From contig JABDKN010000117.1 of NCBI GenBank assembly GCA_013002205.1, positions 1 through 52,468 on the forward strand: a stretch of 52,468 nucleotides of DNA, read 5' to 3'. A program made the position numbers and the translations under genes. Shown one piece after another: positions 46,349 through 52,468 of the stretch (positions are counted from its first letter, which is position 1; each line of letters opens with the position of its first letter). Origin of the DNA: Granulosicoccus sp. (GTDB taxonomy: Bacteria; Pseudomonadota; Gammaproteobacteria; Granulosicoccales; Granulosicoccaceae). Under the pieces are notes generated by a model, which saw nothing but the letters and a program-made list of their open reading frames with translations, did no database searches and had not been told where the DNA came from.

Positions 46349-46738
46349 TCATCCTGCCTTGGCGAGGTCGTTCAGAATCGGGCAGTCGGGTCGATCGTCT
46401 CCACTGCAGGTTTCAATCAAATGGCTCAGGTTTTCACGCATGCTGGTCAGATCCGCAATCTTTGCGTCGATCACTGCCAGATGTTCACGGGCGATCTGCT
46501 TGACATCACCGCTGGCTCGTTCCTGATCTTCCCAGAGTTCCAGCAAGACGCGACAATTCTCTATCGTAAAGCCCAGGGCGCGGGCGCGACAGAGAAATAA
46601 CAGTTTGTGTACATCACGGTCACTGAAGTCCCGGTAACCGTTGGTATCACGCCGCGGCCTGATCAGATCGATATCCTCGTAATAGCGTATGGTCTTTGCG
46701 GGCAGTCCGGAGCGCTTCGCTGCTGTGCCGATGTTCAT
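46349..46738 (-). CDS. cueR: Cu(I)-responsive MerR-family regulator CueR
   Basis: 129 residues. The N-terminal winged helix (MNIGTAAKRSGLPAKTIRYY) and coiled coil are MerR-type. The metal loop has Cys111 and Cys119 in CSGDDRPDC, equal to Cys112/Cys120 of E. coli CueR. Ser76 stands at the place of the Ser that restricts CueR to +1 ions (Cu, Ag, Au). The start overlaps the copA stop by four bases, so regulator and pump are cotranslated. Two CueR-type promoters lie upstream of copA and of the oxidase gene. Confidence 0.94.
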   Translation of the reverse strand: MNIGTAAKRSGLPAKTIRYYEDIDLIRPRRDTNGYRDFSDRDVHKLLFLCRARALGFTIENCRVLLELWEDQERASGDVKQIAREHLAVIDAKIADLTSMRENLSHLIETCSGDDRPDCPILNDLAKAG

Positions 46739-49284
46739 GGACTCGTCTCCTGTGGGTGTGTGTCATTCAGCGTGATGCTGGCAGCCTGTTGGCTGCCAGG
46801 CAGCGGATCGACGGAATTCTCAACCGCTGCACGGTTCTCCAGCAGGGCCGGTTGTGCCCAGCGCAGGCGCAGCGCGTTCGACAGTACAAACACGCTGGAC
46901 AATGCCATGGCCCCTGCGGCCAGCATCGGCGAGAGCATGAGACCGTTGATCGGGTAGAACAGCCCCGCGGCCACCGGTATCAGCAGTATGTTGTAGCCAA
47001 AGGCCCAGAACAGGTTCTGGCGGATGTTTCTCATGGTTTGACGGCTCAGGTAAAACGCATTGACGACGCCCCTGAGATCGCCGGACATCAGGACCACGTC
47101 AGCGCTTTCTATGGCGATGTCGGTACCGGTACCGATGGCGATACCGACATCGGCAGCAGCCAGAGCAGGCGCATCGTTGATGCCATCGCCGACAAAGGCG
47201 ATCTTCCTCTGCCCCGACACCAGTGTCCTCAGGGCGGTGACTTTTCCGTCAGGAAGAACCTCCGCCACGACATGATCGATGCCAAGTTCATCAGCAATCA
47301 CATCAGCTGTTGCCCGGTTGTCACCGGTGATCATGGCTACCTTGAGTCCCAGTGCGTGCAGCGCCGAAACAGCCGCCGGTGTACCCGGCTTGATCGGGTC
47401 TGCAATTCCCAGCACCGCGGCCACCGTTCCATCGATAGCGACAAAAATCGGCGTACGGCCTGCGGACGCGTATCGTCGACCCACCGATGCGAGTTCGCCG
47501 AGGTCTATATGTTCACCGATCAGCAGTCGATCCGCACCCACCAGAACGCTCTGCCCATCCACCTGCGCCTGCACGCCCAGTCCGGTGATGGAGCTGAATG
47601 CATCAACAGCCGGTAGCGCCAGTCCGCGTTCTGCCGCTGCACGCACGATCGCCCTGGCAACGGGATGCTCGGATTGATCTTCGACAGCGGCTATCATGCC
47701 CAGCAGCCTCTCCTCATTCACACCGGCTGCCACGGCAATATCAATCAGCGCCGGACGCCCCTGGGTGAGTGTGCCTGTCTTGTCGATCGCGACTACCCTG
47801 GTCTCTTGAAGACCCTGTAATGCGCTGCCCTGGCGAAACAGCACACCCAGCTCGGCCGCCCGCCCGGTTCCCACCATGATGGACGTCGGTGTGGCCAGTC
47901 CCATGGCACAGGGGCAGGCGATGATGAGCACCGAGACACCGGCAACCAGTGCATGTGTCAGGGCTGGGACCGGTCCGAGCAGCAGCCAGGTGATGACGGT
48001 GAGGGTGGCCAGCAGCAGTACGACGGGTACGAACCATGCGGTGATCCGATTGACCAGATCCTGGATCGGTAGTCTGGCACTTTGTGCCTGCGCTACCAGG
48101 CGAACGATCTGTGCCAGCATGGTATCGTCTCCAACCTGGCTGGCACGGAAACTCAGGGCTCCCTGTCCGTTGATCGTACCGCCGACCACCGAGGCACCCG
48201 CCTCTTTCCTGATCGGCGTGGGTTCACCGGTTACCATGCTTTCATCGACATAGGAAGCACCGTGGACGACCATTCCGTCGGTAGCGATTTTCTCGCCAGG
48301 CCTGACGTGAACGATGTCACCAATCATTATCTGCTCGATGGGGAGTTCCGTGTGCACGCCGTTGCGCTCAACGCGTGCGGTCTTTGGTTGCAGGTCAAGC
48401 AAGCCTTTTATGGCGTCGCCCGTGCGGCCCTTTGCCCGCGCTTCCAGGTAACGACCCAGCAGAATCAGTGTCACGATGACGGCCGCAGCTTCAAAGTACA
48501 CGGCCAGGTTGTCGGCAGGCAGCAGTTGCGGTAAAAACGTGGCGACAACGGAGTAACCCCAGGCAGCCAGGCTGCCCAGCGCTACCAGGCTGTTCATGTC
48601 GGGTGTGCCCTTGAACAAGGCTGGAATACCCCTGGAGTAAAACGCCTGCCCGGGCCACGACATGACGATACTGGCCAGTACGAACTGGATAATCCAGCTC
48701 GTCTGCAGGCCAATGGTTGCTGCCAGCCAGTGATGAAACGCGGGGACCAGATGGCCTCCCATCTCCATGATGAACACAGGCAGAGTCAGCACGGCGGCCA
48801 GGGTCACCTGACCTCGCAGTCGCGACATTTCCTCCGCCTTGCGGCTGCCATGATCACGCTCTTCGAGCACGTTCGCAGTGGCCGGGTAGCCGAGCGCGCC
48901 GCTTGCGCGGGCAAGCTCTGTGGCGCTGACGGCCCCTGTGAGTACCGTCACCGTTGCAGTGTCGGTCGCCAGGTTGACAGCAACATCCAGGACACCGGGA
49001 ACCGCTCTCAGGGCCATCTCGACGCGTCTCACACACGAGGCGCAGCTCATGTCCCGCACCGACAGGGTCATCGTGTGTTTCCGGGCCGGGTAGCCGGCGA
49101 TCTCCAGCGCATCGACAATGGCCTGCTCATCGGCTGTGCCGGATACCGTCGCGCTCTCTCCGGCCAGGTTGACGACTGCCTCCTCGACGCCGTCAACAGC
49201 ACTGAGTGCCTTCTCGACACGTGCCACACACGAGGCGCAGCTCATGGCGTCGATTTCGATCGAAAGTGGCTTACTACCTGCCAT
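46735..49284 (-). CDS. copA: Cu(I)-exporting P1B-type ATPase CopA
   Basis: 849 residues. Two N-terminal metal-binding domains each have MSCASC (residues about 14-19 and 83-88). Eight membrane helices follow; the transport motif CPC is near residue 456 in IIACPCAMGLATP, the phosphorylated Asp is in DKTGTLT near 501, the HP dipeptide is in SEHPVARAIV, and GDGINDAPAL is the hinge. It pumps Cu(I) from the cytoplasm to the periplasm. A strong SD (GGAGG) lies 8 bases before the ATG. It is transcribed with cueR from a CueR-controlled promoter. Confidence 0.96.
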   Translation of the reverse strand: MAGSKPLSIEIDAMSCASCVARVEKALSAVDGVEEAVVNLAGESATVSGTADEQAIVDALEIAGYPARKHTMTLSVRDMSCASCVRRVEMALRAVPGVLDVAVNLATDTATVTVLTGAVSATELARASGALGYPATANVLEERDHGSRKAEEMSRLRGQVTLAAVLTLPVFIMEMGGHLVPAFHHWLAATIGLQTSWIIQFVLASIVMSWPGQAFYSRGIPALFKGTPDMNSLVALGSLAAWGYSVVATFLPQLLPADNLAVYFEAAAVIVTLILLGRYLEARAKGRTGDAIKGLLDLQPKTARVERNGVHTELPIEQIMIGDIVHVRPGEKIATDGMVVHGASYVDESMVTGEPTPIRKEAGASVVGGTINGQGALSFRASQVGDDTMLAQIVRLVAQAQSARLPIQDLVNRITAWFVPVVLLLATLTVITWLLLGPVPALTHALVAGVSVLIIACPCAMGLATPTSIMVGTGRAAELGVLFRQGSALQGLQETRVVAIDKTGTLTQGRPALIDIAVAAGVNEERLLGMIAAVEDQSEHPVARAIVRAAAERGLALPAVDAFSSITGLGVQAQVDGQSVLVGADRLLIGEHIDLGELASVGRRYASAGRTPIFVAIDGTVAAVLGIADPIKPGTPAAVSALHALGLKVAMITGDNRATADVIADELGIDHVVAEVLPDGKVTALRTLVSGQRKIAFVGDGINDAPALAAADVGIAIGTGTDIAIESADVVLMSGDLRGVVNAFYLSRQTMRNIRQNLFWAFGYNILLIPVAAGLFYPINGLMLSPMLAAGAMALSSVFVLSNALRLRWAQPALLENRAAVENSVDPLPGSQQAASITLNDTHPQETSP

Positions 49285-49314: not shown

Positions 49315-49345
49315 AGCATAGATGTTCCAGTGACTGGAAGGTCAA
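49315..49345 (-). promoter_or_regulatory. CueR-type promoter/operator for copA-cueR
   Basis: On the minus strand TTGACC (49340-49345) and TATGCT (49315-49320) are separated by 19 bp that hold the dyad TTCCAGTCACTGGAA. The long spacer and dyad are the hallmark of MerR/CueR promoters, where Cu(I)-bound CueR bends DNA to align -35 and -10. Confidence 0.9.
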
Positions 49346-49376
49346 GACTCGATGGTGTTGCAGTGACTATGCTCAT

Positions 49377-49407
49377 TTGAGCTTCCAGCAGGTGGAAGCC
49401 CTATAGT
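49377..49407 (+). promoter_or_regulatory. CueR-type promoter/operator for the multicopper oxidase operon
   Basis: TTGAGC (49377-49382), a 19-bp spacer with dyad TTCCAGCAGGTGGAA, then TATAGT (49402-49407). It faces away from the copA promoter, about 30 bp apart, and gives a start near 49414, 45 bases before the oxidase ATG. Confidence 0.88.
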
Positions 49408-49458: not shown

Positions 49459-50907
49459 ATGAATCGTCGCAAGTTTCTGCTATCCACCTTGTCAGGCGGC
49501 GTTGGCACACTTCTGCAGCAGGGTCGTGCCGTCGGTGCAACGCAATCACAGGGTGCGCTCGACACCGCCGCCGGTACCGGCGCGGCGCAACATTTCACGC
49601 TGAGATGTGCACCCGCCAGGGCATCGATCGTAGGCCCTGATCTTCCGGCAACCGATGTCTGGGCATTCAACGCTCAGGTGCCCGGCATGCCGATTCGGAT
49701 TCGACACGGGCAATCTCTGGAGGCAATCGTCACCAATTCGCTGGACGTACCTACCTCTGTCCACTGGCATGGGATTCGTCTACCCAACGCCATGGACGGA
49801 GTGGCCGGTCTGACGCAGAGTGCGATCGAGCCAGGTGAGTCGTATACCTATACGTTCACGCCCCCCGATGCAGGCACCTACTGGTACCACTCACACCTCA
49901 ATGCGTTCGAGCAGGTAGGTCGTGGCCTGTACGGGCCACTTGTCATCGAGGAACGAAGTCCTCCCAGGGTCGATCGTGACCTGGTCTGGATGATCGATGA
50001 CTGGCGATTGATGAACGATGCCTCCATCAGAGAGGATTTCGGCAACGGGCATGACAGGTCCCACGCAGGACGCATCGGCAATGTGCCTACCGTCAACGGA
50101 AGATTTCGCGATATCCTCAGGGTTCGATCCGGTGAACGCCTGCGCTTGCGGCTGATCAACGCCGCCAACGCCAGAAACTTTGCACTGGATTTTGGTGAAC
50201 TCGCTCCCTCGGTCATCGCGATCGATGGCCAGGCGGTCACACCCTACGTCGCAGCAGGCCCGATCATCATCGGCGCTGCAGGCCGGGTCGATCTGGTACT
50301 GGATGTGCTGGCCTCACCTGGCAGCAGTATCTCCGTGACGGACAGCTTCTATCGACAGTCATTCGAGCTGACGCGCCTGGTCGTCACCGACGAGACGCCA
50401 CTTCGTGGTGAGGCGCTTGATGAACCGATCGCGCTGGGCCAGCCCCTGATCGCCGAGCCGGACCTGGCGGACTTCGAGGAAAAGTCCATTGTCATCGCCG
50501 GCGGGGCCATGGGCGGGCTCAGGCAGGCACGGCTGGATGGTCAATGGATGGCGCTGGGAGAAATCGCCCGACAGGGCTATGTGTGGGCGATCAACGACAC
50601 GGTCGGACACTCGCTGACACTACCGCCTCTGATCGATGTCGCCGCCGGTACCTCGGTGAAGATCCGCCTCGACAACCAGACGGCATTTCCGCATCCGATG
50701 CATCTGCATGGTCACCACATGAAATTGCTGAGTGTGGATGACGACGCACTTGATGAACCCCGCTGGGTCGATAGTCCGCTGTTGATGCCCGGTCAGCGCA
50801 TGGAACTTGCCTTCGTTGCGGACAATCCCGGCGACTGGCTTTTTCACTGCCATGCGCTGGAGCATCATGCCGCCGGGCTGGGCGCGCTGGTTCGTGTCAG
50901 CGGATGA
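49459..50907 (+). CDS. Multicopper oxidase, Tat-exported (CueO/CopA-periplasmic type)
   Basis: 482 residues from the ATG at 49459. The N-terminus NRRKFLLST matches a twin-arginine signal, so it is exported folded with copper. The copper sites are complete: HWHG near residue 103, WYHSH near 140, HPMHLHGHH near 413 and HCHALEHHAAGL near 459, whose last residue puts Leu at the type 1 axial position (high potential). Periplasmic Cu(I) oxidation to less toxic Cu(II) is the likely role, given the CueR promoter and the pump next door. No Met-rich insert is seen, unlike E. coli CueO, so laccase-type variants are possible. Its stop overlaps the next ORF by four bases. Confidence 0.93.
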   Translation: MNRRKFLLSTLSGGVGTLLQQGRAVGATQSQGALDTAAGTGAAQHFTLRCAPARASIVGPDLPATDVWAFNAQVPGMPIRIRHGQSLEAIVTNSLDVPTSVHWHGIRLPNAMDGVAGLTQSAIEPGESYTYTFTPPDAGTYWYHSHLNAFEQVGRGLYGPLVIEERSPPRVDRDLVWMIDDWRLMNDASIREDFGNGHDRSHAGRIGNVPTVNGRFRDILRVRSGERLRLRLINAANARNFALDFGELAPSVIAIDGQAVTPYVAAGPIIIGAAGRVDLVLDVLASPGSSISVTDSFYRQSFELTRLVVTDETPLRGEALDEPIALGQPLIAEPDLADFEEKSIVIAGGAMGGLRQARLDGQWMALGEIARQGYVWAINDTVGHSLTLPPLIDVAAGTSVKIRLDNQTAFPHPMHLHGHHMKLLSVDDDALDEPRWVDSPLLMPGQRMELAFVADNPGDWLFHCHALEHHAAGLGALVRVSG

Positions 50908-51026
50908 CACCGGCAGTCAGACTCAGACAGGTGGATGTGATCGAAAACAGTCTTCGTCAGGAGCGCCTGGAGGATCAAACGGCGCTGGCACGCTGGCAAG
51001 GCTCACACGACGATCTGCAGGAGTAA
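50904..51026 (+). CDS. Small coupled ORF, 40 codons
   Basis: ATG at 50904 overlaps the oxidase stop as ATGA, and its TAA (51024-51026) lies just before the cytochrome c start. The 40-residue product (MTPAVRLRQVDVIENSLRQE at its start) is hydrophilic and helix-prone, with no signal peptide, cysteine or His motif. It may be a real small protein or a translational bridge that carries ribosomes across to the cytochrome. The coupled fit at both ends is the main evidence. Confidence 0.5.
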   Translation: MTPAVRLRQVDVIENSLRQERLEDQTALARWQGSHDDLQE

Positions 51027-51033
51027 TGTGATC

Positions 51034-51582
51034 ATGAATCTGAACCCGACCGGCCAGGTGCTTGCCCTTTCCAGGCGCTTTGCTCCGATTATGCTGGTGT
51101 CGATAGTGATACCGCTCTCGGGCATGGCCTCAACCGGCACCGATGGAGTGGAGACGAGGCTGCTGGCAGATGATCTGTCGGTAGTCGCCGCTGGAGAGGT
51201 TGTCTACCGGTCTCACTGTGCAGCGTGCCACGGTGTGCAGCTGGAAGGTCAGCCGGACTGGCGGCAACGCGACAGTGAGGGCTTGCTACCCGCCCCGCCG
51301 CACGATGCCAGCGGGCACACCTGGCATCATGCCGATGACCTGCTGTTCGAGATAACCAAGTACGGGCCGGCGGTAGTGATCGGTGATGAGACCTATCGCT
51401 CCAGAATGCCGGCATATGCCACCGTATTGGATGACCAGCAGATCATAGCGGTGCTCTCGTACATCAAGAATTCCTGGCCGGAGGAGCAACGCAGCTGGCA
51501 GGATGAGGTCAATGGCACAACCAGGAATGTATTCGAACCGACTGGTCGGAAACCATCGCTGCTGGACAAGTTGCTCAAATAG
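51034..51582 (+). CDS. Exported class I cytochrome c
   Basis: 182 residues from the ATG at 51034; a GTG at 51028 is the alternative, and AGGAG at 51019-51023 serves either. The signal peptide (IMLVSIVIPLSG) is followed by one heme site CAACH near residue 61 and a likely axial Met in RSRMPAYATVL near 126. The C-terminal helix DDQQIIAVLSYIKNSW is typical. As it is cotranscribed with the copper oxidase it could be its electron donor or acceptor partner; this is inferred. Confidence 0.9.
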   Translation: MNLNPTGQVLALSRRFAPIMLVSIVIPLSGMASTGTDGVETRLLADDLSVVAAGEVVYRSHCAACHGVQLEGQPDWRQRDSEGLLPAPPHDASGHTWHHADDLLFEITKYGPAVVIGDETYRSRMPAYATVLDDQQIIAVLSYIKNSWPEEQRSWQDEVNGTTRNVFEPTGRKPSLLDKLLK

Positions 51583-51773: not shown

Positions 51774-52468
51774 ATGAGGAATTTTGCAGCAAACCAGAGA
51801 CTGGGAGCAGTGTGTGTTCTGGCTGGGACGGTATCATTCAGTCCCGGTGCGGCTGCCAATGAAGCGCCGACAGCACCCGGAAACTTCACTGCAATAGCTG
51901 TCTCGTCAACTGAAATCAGATTAAGCTGGGACCCGTCAGTGGATGATAAACGAGTTCGATTCTATGAACTCGTGCGCGATGAGGCGGTGATCTCCAGAAC
52001 CGGCAAACTGACTTACACGGACAATAATCTGAGTGCGGGAGTCACCTATCTGTACACGGTGGTTGCCAGCGACGGCCAACTGGTGTCGCCCGTTGCCTCC
52101 TACAGTATTTCCACACCGTTGGCCGATCCGGATGAGACGGATAATTCACCGGGCAAGTCGGGTAAGAACGGGAAAGGCGGCAAGAATGATCCTGCACCCG
52201 AAGAGCCGCCCACTGAGGATCCGCCAGCCGAAGAACCTCCCGTTGAAGAACCACCTGCCGAGGAGCCACCGACCGAAGATCCACCCGTAGAAGAACCACC
52301 TGCGGAGGAGCCACCGACCGAGGAGCCACCCGCTGGCGGGGCACCCCAGGGCTGGCAAGTCACATTCAATGACGATTTTTCCGGCAGTGGCGATCTGGAT
52401 ATCAGCAGTGCAGGGCGCAACTGGCGATTTGAAACCATGAGCGATGGACTGCACAGGGCAGGCAACAC
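51774..52468 (+). CDS. Secreted modular protein with FN3 domain and Pro/Glu repeat (partial)
   Basis: An open frame of 231 codons runs off the right edge. A signal peptide ends near AAA-NEAP. Residues about 32-118 form a fibronectin type III domain (APGNFTAIAVSSTEIRLSWD, then YELVRDEAVISRTGKL and TYLYTVVASDG). A Lys/Gly linker is followed by tandem EEPPA, EEPPT, EDPPV units (about 142-186) and then GWQVTFNDDFSG, the start of a further domain that reads like a concanavalin-fold or glycoside-hydrolase module. The enzyme type cannot be decided from the visible part. Probably extracellular or surface-bound. Confidence 0.75.
   Translation, partial: MRNFAANQRLGAVCVLAGTVSFSPGAAANEAPTAPGNFTAIAVSSTEIRLSWDPSVDDKRVRFYELVRDEAVISRTGKLTYTDNNLSAGVTYLYTVVASDGQLVSPVASYSISTPLADPDETDNSPGKSGKNGKGGKNDPAPEEPPTEDPPAEEPPVEEPPAEEPPTEDPPVEEPPAEEPPTEEPPAGGAPQGWQVTFNDDFSGSGDLDISSAGRNWRFETMSDGLHRAGN
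52197..52330 (+). repeat. Tandem 15-bp repeats encoding (E/D)(E/D)PP units
   Basis: About nine degenerate 15-bp units encode PPTED, PPAEE, PPVEE and so on, forming a stiff acidic proline-rich spacer between the FN3 domain and the next module. Confidence 0.8.

Follow-up and report, generated by a model that had tools for sequence, protein, structure and literature searches.

The window analysed here, a stretch of 52,468 nucleotides from Granulosicoccus sp. (contig JABDKN010000117.1), contains two gene groups that diverge from a 174-bp intergenic region between copA and a multicopper oxidase gene, and both of the divergent promoters are held within that region. The features of the locus, with the evidence for each, are as follows:

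46349..46738, minus strand: cueR, 129 aa, metal loop CSGDDRPDC (TIGR02044, alignment with E. coli CueR)
46735..49284, minus strand: copA, Cu-exporting P1B-type ATPase, 849 aa (TIGR01511, Pfam, motifs)
49345..49315, minus strand: CueR-type promoter of copA-cueR, TTGACC, 19 bp, TATGCT (sequence); -35 TTGACC at 49345..49340, dyad TTCCAGTCACTGGAA at 49339..49325, -10 TATGCT at 49320..49315
49346..49376: stretch of 31 bp between the two -35 hexamers (sequence)
49377..49407, plus strand: CueR-type promoter of the oxidase-cytochrome operon, TTGAGC, 19 bp, TATAGT (sequence); dyad TTCCAGCAGGTGGAA at 49383-49397, -10 TATAGT at 49402-49407
49459..50907, plus strand: three-domain multicopper oxidase, 482 aa (Pfam Cu-oxidase_3 and Cu-oxidase_2)
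50904-51026: 40-aa open reading frame that lies between the genes of the oxidase and the cytochrome and overlaps the stop of the former
51028..51582, plus strand: monohaem cytochrome c, 184 aa, one CAACH (Pfam Cytochrom_C)

Both promoters are of the CueR type as read from the sequence, each with a TTCC-N7-GGAA dyad inside a 19-bp spacer, and together they form a back-to-back divergon in which one of the two drives copA. The oxidase-side -35, TTGAGC, differs from TTGACC at one position, and the distances from the -10 to the ATG, 30 bp for copA and 51 bp for the oxidase, are both normal for promoter and start. The two dyad centres are 58 bp apart, which corresponds to 5.5 helical turns. An earlier note on this DNA had described two promoters with 19-bp spacers and dyads lying about 30 bp apart and pointing away from each other, one for copA-cueR and the other for the oxidase-cytochrome operon, and this description was borne out: 31 bp separate the -35 hexamers, each arm has its own CueR-type promoter, and the interval 49315-49407 coincides precisely with the outer edges of both -10s, so that coordinates, spacing and orientation are all exact. 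The twin CueR-type promoters are confirmed as real.

In order to judge the sites against chance, the genome (4,462,742 bases, or 4.46 Mb, in 316 contigs) was searched with a strict CueR-promoter pattern, which gave two matches, both of them belonging to this pair, versus none in the reversed control. When up to three mismatches were tolerated there were 11 matches in the genome and 7 in the control, with the window sites at 0 and 1 mismatch and the remaining nine matches all at 3. A pattern for the divergent pair matched the window once and found nothing in 100 shuffles. Based on the strict pattern, the mismatch counts and the shuffles of the divergent pair, chance dyads were ruled out. A weight matrix built on 145 unique sites from 86 other loci scored the window sites at 34.4 and 34.3 (approximately the 23rd percentile among the matrix sites), the same two dyads at 12.1 and 4.2 on the opposite strand, and the best unrelated site of the window at -0.1, although this matrix cannot count as independent evidence, since its 145 sites were chosen by the same TTGA/TTCC/GGAA letters. 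A -10 of the window type (TAnnnT) occurs in 11 of 172 sites of other CueR pairs, in which CATCTT is favoured at the same 19-bp distance.

The copA product was assigned to the CopA family on its TIGR01511 score (592.1 bits, cut-off 397), and it has the expected motifs, comprising two MSCASC heavy-metal domains (CxxC) at the N-terminus, CPC, DKTGT and GDGIND; its score for the equivalog of E. coli-type CopA, NF007952, is under the cut-off (731.5 versus 1316). A second ATPase frame, of 956 aa, is present elsewhere in the window's genome (G000, contig C67, 11221-13128; loci L076 and L077). This frame passes the copper ATPase model solely when its pieces are summed (415.7 versus 397), and no CueR-type promoter was found at it with the strict pattern applied genome-wide.

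The placement of cueR downstream of copA and the identity of the regulator, both of which had been claimed earlier, were upheld. The cueR frame overlaps the copA stop by ATGA, and with 157.9 bits against the curated equivalog cut-off of 147.4 for TIGR02044 its product is a CueR, the sole protein of the genome above that cut-off. It aligns over nearly its full length with the E. coli CueR structures (1q05); both metal-loop cysteines of the C-x7-C loop are matched, and a Ser aligns with the Ser of E. coli CueR, residues that presumably have the roles of the metal-loop cysteines and dimer-helix Ser of CueR. Given the ATGA overlap, the natural reading is that cueR would be autoregulated through the copA promoter.

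On the opposite arm, the oxidase belongs to the laccase-like three-domain class, with the copper motifs HWHG, YHSH, HPMHLHGH and HCHALEHHAAGL, the fourth of which was recognized by eye, as was a twin-arginine-like start (NRRKFLLS). Its closest solved chain is the laccase 4f7k. An identity as E. coli-type CueO was ruled out on the score for the CueO equivalog NF008205 (113.7, cut-off 525), and the score for the copper-resistance-oxidase model was likewise under its cut-off (206.2 versus 478.95). A Met-rich insert is a feature of CueO; the oxidase of the window is not Met-rich, with 11 Met in 482 aa. We also observed that its HCHALEHHAAGL motif has Leu, not Met, at the usual axial position of the type-1 copper, a substitution that is found in some high-potential laccases. 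The cytochrome c is probably exported, as judged from a signal recognized by eye. That Cu(I) is the substrate of the oxidase, and that oxidation would therefore be periplasmic, is suggested by the enzyme family and the gene company. The 40-aa frame between the two genes was considered as a third gene of the operon and is unsupported, with no tblastn match in 30 family stretches and no Pfam match. Near the end of the window, a reading frame that is cut off by the contig end contains, at 52200-52335, a repeat rich in proline and glutamate, judged by eye to be of the EEPP type.

Relatives of the oxidase were sought in 48 genomes of the Granulosicoccaceae, and a search at the level of the order gave the identical 48. 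Besides the window's own oxidase there were 22 near-full-length orthologues (66-72% identity), with fragments in genomes G001 and G032. Up to ~10 kb of sequence was read for each orthologue, and as G013 has no upstream DNA, 21 were left for a scan that tolerated one mismatch in the eight dyad letters and two in the six -35 letters. In none of these 21 is the oxidase faced by a CueR-type promoter, so the double dyad, whose retention in related copper islands had been proposed as a check, is not retained in the related oxidase loci, and conservation gives the oxidase-side box no backing. A cytochrome c gene lies on the same strand within 1.5 kb downstream of the oxidase in 10 of the 22 orthologous loci, and copA is near the oxidase in two of them, divergent in G007 and convergent in G009. 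The gene order of G007 is the same divergent one as in the window, and in it the copA-facing CueR-type site occurs alone. A strict single-promoter search of the 48 genomes identified eight sites in six genomes, five of which precede copA (in the window's genome, G007, G012, G020 and G034) and one the window's oxidase; of the other two, one precedes an HMA-type gene in G020 (by eye) and one separates, in G032, a cueR homologue from the gene of a small membrane protein. As such, an orthologue of this oxidase under a predicted CueR-type site is known from the window's genome alone. Most of the family orthologues would evidently be expressed without CueR control, and since they apparently are, the role of the enzyme is not necessarily copper detoxification.

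A related picture emerges from more distant oxidase paralogues in the family. In G003 a CueR-type site, mismatched at one dyad position, faces the gene of a small membrane protein, behind which lies an oxidase of 37% identity, and a CueR homologue adjoins. In G043 (L066, 4674-5165) a CueR-like site is found ~740 bp upstream of an oxidase paralogue of 47% identity. It would appear that oxidases of this enzyme family acquired CueR-like control on more than one occasion. Adjoining the CueR-like promoter of G043 is a truncated CueR-like frame (CRGDSGPECSIL), possibly a decayed cueR. We also noted that in both G032 (L202, 1087-2013) and G003 (L071, 4482-5475) a CueR homologue is divergent from a small membrane-protein gene, with a CueR-type promoter facing the latter. 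The two membrane proteins, of ~150 aa, are alike by eye and share an end of the type GGARLT-WVVPIMLLAGFLAPLPYNYWRLK, and they are a possible unnamed member of the copper regulon.

Divergent CueR pairs with gaps of 15-45 bp were sought in one genome per species, which gave at least 119 stretches, 80 of which were analysed; this set is mostly from Alphaproteobacteria, with 12 of the 80 from outside that class as judged by eye from the titles. By tblastn, the two arms of these 80 loci (of at least 119) were CopA and CopZ-like in 44, CopA and a DUF305 type in 11, CopA and CueR in 6, and other combinations in 19, and 14 of the 160 arms were left without a class. In these counts "CopZ-like" denotes any HMA-type match of no more than 600 bp and may include pieces of ATPases (for example in L138), and DUF305 and HMA were each confirmed by Pfam on a single representative. 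CopA was present on one arm in 61 of these 80 loci, and copA was followed by cueR on the same strand less than 400 bp away in at least 31, which is a lower bound because loci of up to 8 kb clip the arms. Among the classified arms of the 80 loci (of at least 119), none has an oxidase as its first gene. In six of the 80 an oxidase is located deeper in an arm: away from copA in L078, L083 and L146, where the arm is led by a chaperone or DUF305 gene, and in L138, behind cueR; and behind copA in L084 and L152. In evenly drawn samples, each of which counts the window's own genome, CueR pairs were rare, being found in 2 of 369 genomes of the class and 5 of 398 of the phylum. A sample of another class had pairs with gaps of 15-45 bp in 4 of 385 genomes (gaps of 20, 24, 26 and 27 bp, of which the pairs with gaps of 26 and 27 are already in the phylum sample).

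The gaps between the -35 hexamers of the 80 loci (of at least 119) fall largely into three ranges, with 8 loci at 15-18 bp, 34 at 24-27 bp and 18 at 35-38 bp; 20 are outside these ranges, and 7 of those 20 are at 29-32 bp, like the window. Phase was tested on 86 loci (L078-L157, L198, L205-L207, L211 and L212), from which similar pairs were removed beforehand so that 24, 41, 49 or 57 of the 86 were kept, depending on the threshold. A periodicity of 10.5 bp persisted after thinning (for the 41 of 86 retained, R was 0.49, a value that no more than 1 in 20,000 draws of a smoothed null attained), and at the strictest thinning, with 24 of 86 kept, R was 0.44 and the null probability ~0.01; the thinned loci are still partly related and not fully independent, and shared ancestry may explain part of the periodicity. 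The preferred distances from dyad to dyad are approximately 4, 5 and 6 turns, corresponding to gaps near 15, 26 and 36 bp. The window, with its gap of 31 bp and dyad distance of 58 bp, is nearly opposite in phase and does not follow the whole-turn tendency, which is a tendency derived from this analysis and not an accepted criterion.

In view of the fact that the two sites are the sole strict matches of the genome and that a CueR is encoded behind copA, copper co-induction of export and oxidation is likely. The reading that we favour, with a probability of roughly 0.78, is that two independent CueR promoters under one autoregulated sensor give copper-dependent export and periplasmic oxidation together, with CueR binding and Cu(I) induction predicted for both arms. 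A rise of cytoplasmic Cu(I) would cause CueR in each 19-bp spacer to remodel the DNA so that RNA polymerase could use the over-long promoter. The copA-side site would drive copA-cueR, providing export and autoregulation, and the oxidase-side site, which is complete, would drive the periplasmic multicopper oxidase and the cytochrome c; oxidation of the exported Cu(I) would fall to these two, with the cytochrome as the putative electron partner of the oxidase. Since the divergon layout is a known one, no oxidase-first arm was seen among the classified arms of the 80 loci and none of the 21 orthologues has the promoter, the oxidase-cytochrome arm seems to have been rewired locally, the pair probably having been brought under CueR at a place where divergons most often carry a copper chaperone. 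If so, the locus is an example of how the second arm of a standard copper divergon can be exchanged, from pump plus chaperone elsewhere to pump plus oxidase-cytochrome here, and through this exchange export from the cytoplasm and oxidation in the periplasm would both depend on one sensor in one place.

The earlier note had further described the pair as a single compact switch, and this held up in part: each arm does have a CueR-type promoter, but these are two complete promoters with their own dyads, whose register differs by roughly half a helical turn, and as such the sequence demands no coupling. In a truly single switch, changes in supercoiling or bending caused by CueR and polymerase on one side would make the other side fire as well. 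The compact spacing speaks for such physical coupling, as does the preference of pairs elsewhere for whole helical turns, and in the 385-genome sample, where longer gaps of 46-76 bp were also sought for phasing, 4 genomes had pairs at 15-45 bp versus 0 of 385 at the longer gaps. A difference of 4 versus 0 is, however, too small to establish compactness, the window pair at 5.5 turns is off the trend, which argues against one mechanically coupled switch, and there is a full promoter on each side, so that we regard coupling at this locus as unlikely. The possibility was raised that CueR pairs other than that of the window are coupled. It would extend to CueR pairs as a phased element, with dyads 4, 5 or 6 turns apart across bacteria and two CueR-polymerase complexes on the same face that influence each other; the window would then be a natural half-turn exception that arose when the oxidase-cytochrome operon gained its own site, and would act as two uncoupled promoters. 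We put this forward tentatively, as a speculation more doubtful than not. If the phasing is real, spacing rules for adjoining promoters with over-long spacers become testable, with the window as a natural half-turn variant.

The two remaining explanations concern the oxidase side. It is improbable, somewhat more so than coupling, that only the copA side works as a CueR promoter and that the oxidase operon uses another promoter, its own dyad being weak or fortuitous. This explanation would account for the absence of a CueR box at all 21 oxidase orthologues and for G007, where the same divergent layout has the copA-facing site alone, but at the oxidase-side site the dyad is full, the spacing is exactly 19 bp and the -10 is good, and the strict pattern matches just this site and the copA-side one genome-wide. 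Control of the oxidase side by another MerR-family regulator is far less probable again. The genome does encode a second MerR-type protein (contig C139, 51 bits to the CueR model), but it did not reach the cut-off of any NCBIfam model that it matched, and both sites bear the same CueR/HmrR-type dyad. As the second protein falls short of all these cut-offs, control of both boxes is most plausibly ascribed to CueR.

Among the titles and abstract openings of the best-ranked literature matches, none described a copA-cueR and oxidase-cytochrome pair and none the helical phasing of CueR pairs. Individual parts of the arrangement have precedents. On a plasmid of Tritonibacter mobilis (L216), as in the window, a CueR-type site and cueR occur with an oxidase (48% identical) and a cytochrome c; unlike in the window, there is one dyad, the annotated genes are all on one strand and no copA is annotated in the stretch. 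The single CueR dyad of L216, at 169-203, is before cueR, with a weak match also on the opposite strand. The golTS/golB locus of Salmonella is probably a further precedent. According to the excerpts available for Acinetobacter baumannii, copZ and a cueR-copA1 operon (region B) diverge from an interval that contains a putative CueR site (PMC7015863, PMC6387184), and thus, as in the window, copA and cueR are in one operon with a divergent partner and an intergenic putative CueR site. The partner there is, however, a cytoplasmic chaperone and not an oxidase-cytochrome pair, and one putative site is mentioned in those excerpts. The CueR regulon of Escherichia coli, as outlined in PMC1526738 and PMC10141476, includes copA and cueO with 19-bp-spacer promoters, and it corresponds to the window in the type of regulator, in having a pump and a multicopper oxidase as targets and in the spacers; it differs in that copA and cueO are separate loci, and the window's oxidase is far under the CueO cut-off. 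A comparative-genomics study of CueR/HmrR likewise covers promoters of the 19-bp kind, includes cueO in the regulon and lists cytochromes with CueR sites as candidates (PMC1526738). In Vibrio, c-type cytochromes have candidate CueR/HmrR sites, as does the cytochrome operon of the window, but the excerpts available do not place them in one divergon with copA or with an oxidase (PMC1526738). The CueR/HmrR divergons (80 of at least 119 loci) have the same two back-to-back sites, and most of them have CopA on one arm, whereas their other arm is usually CopZ-like or DUF305-led and their gaps are mostly in phase. Back-to-back CueR promoters beside copA are therefore a known layout in many lineages, and the oxidase-cytochrome arm is the unusual part of the locus described here.
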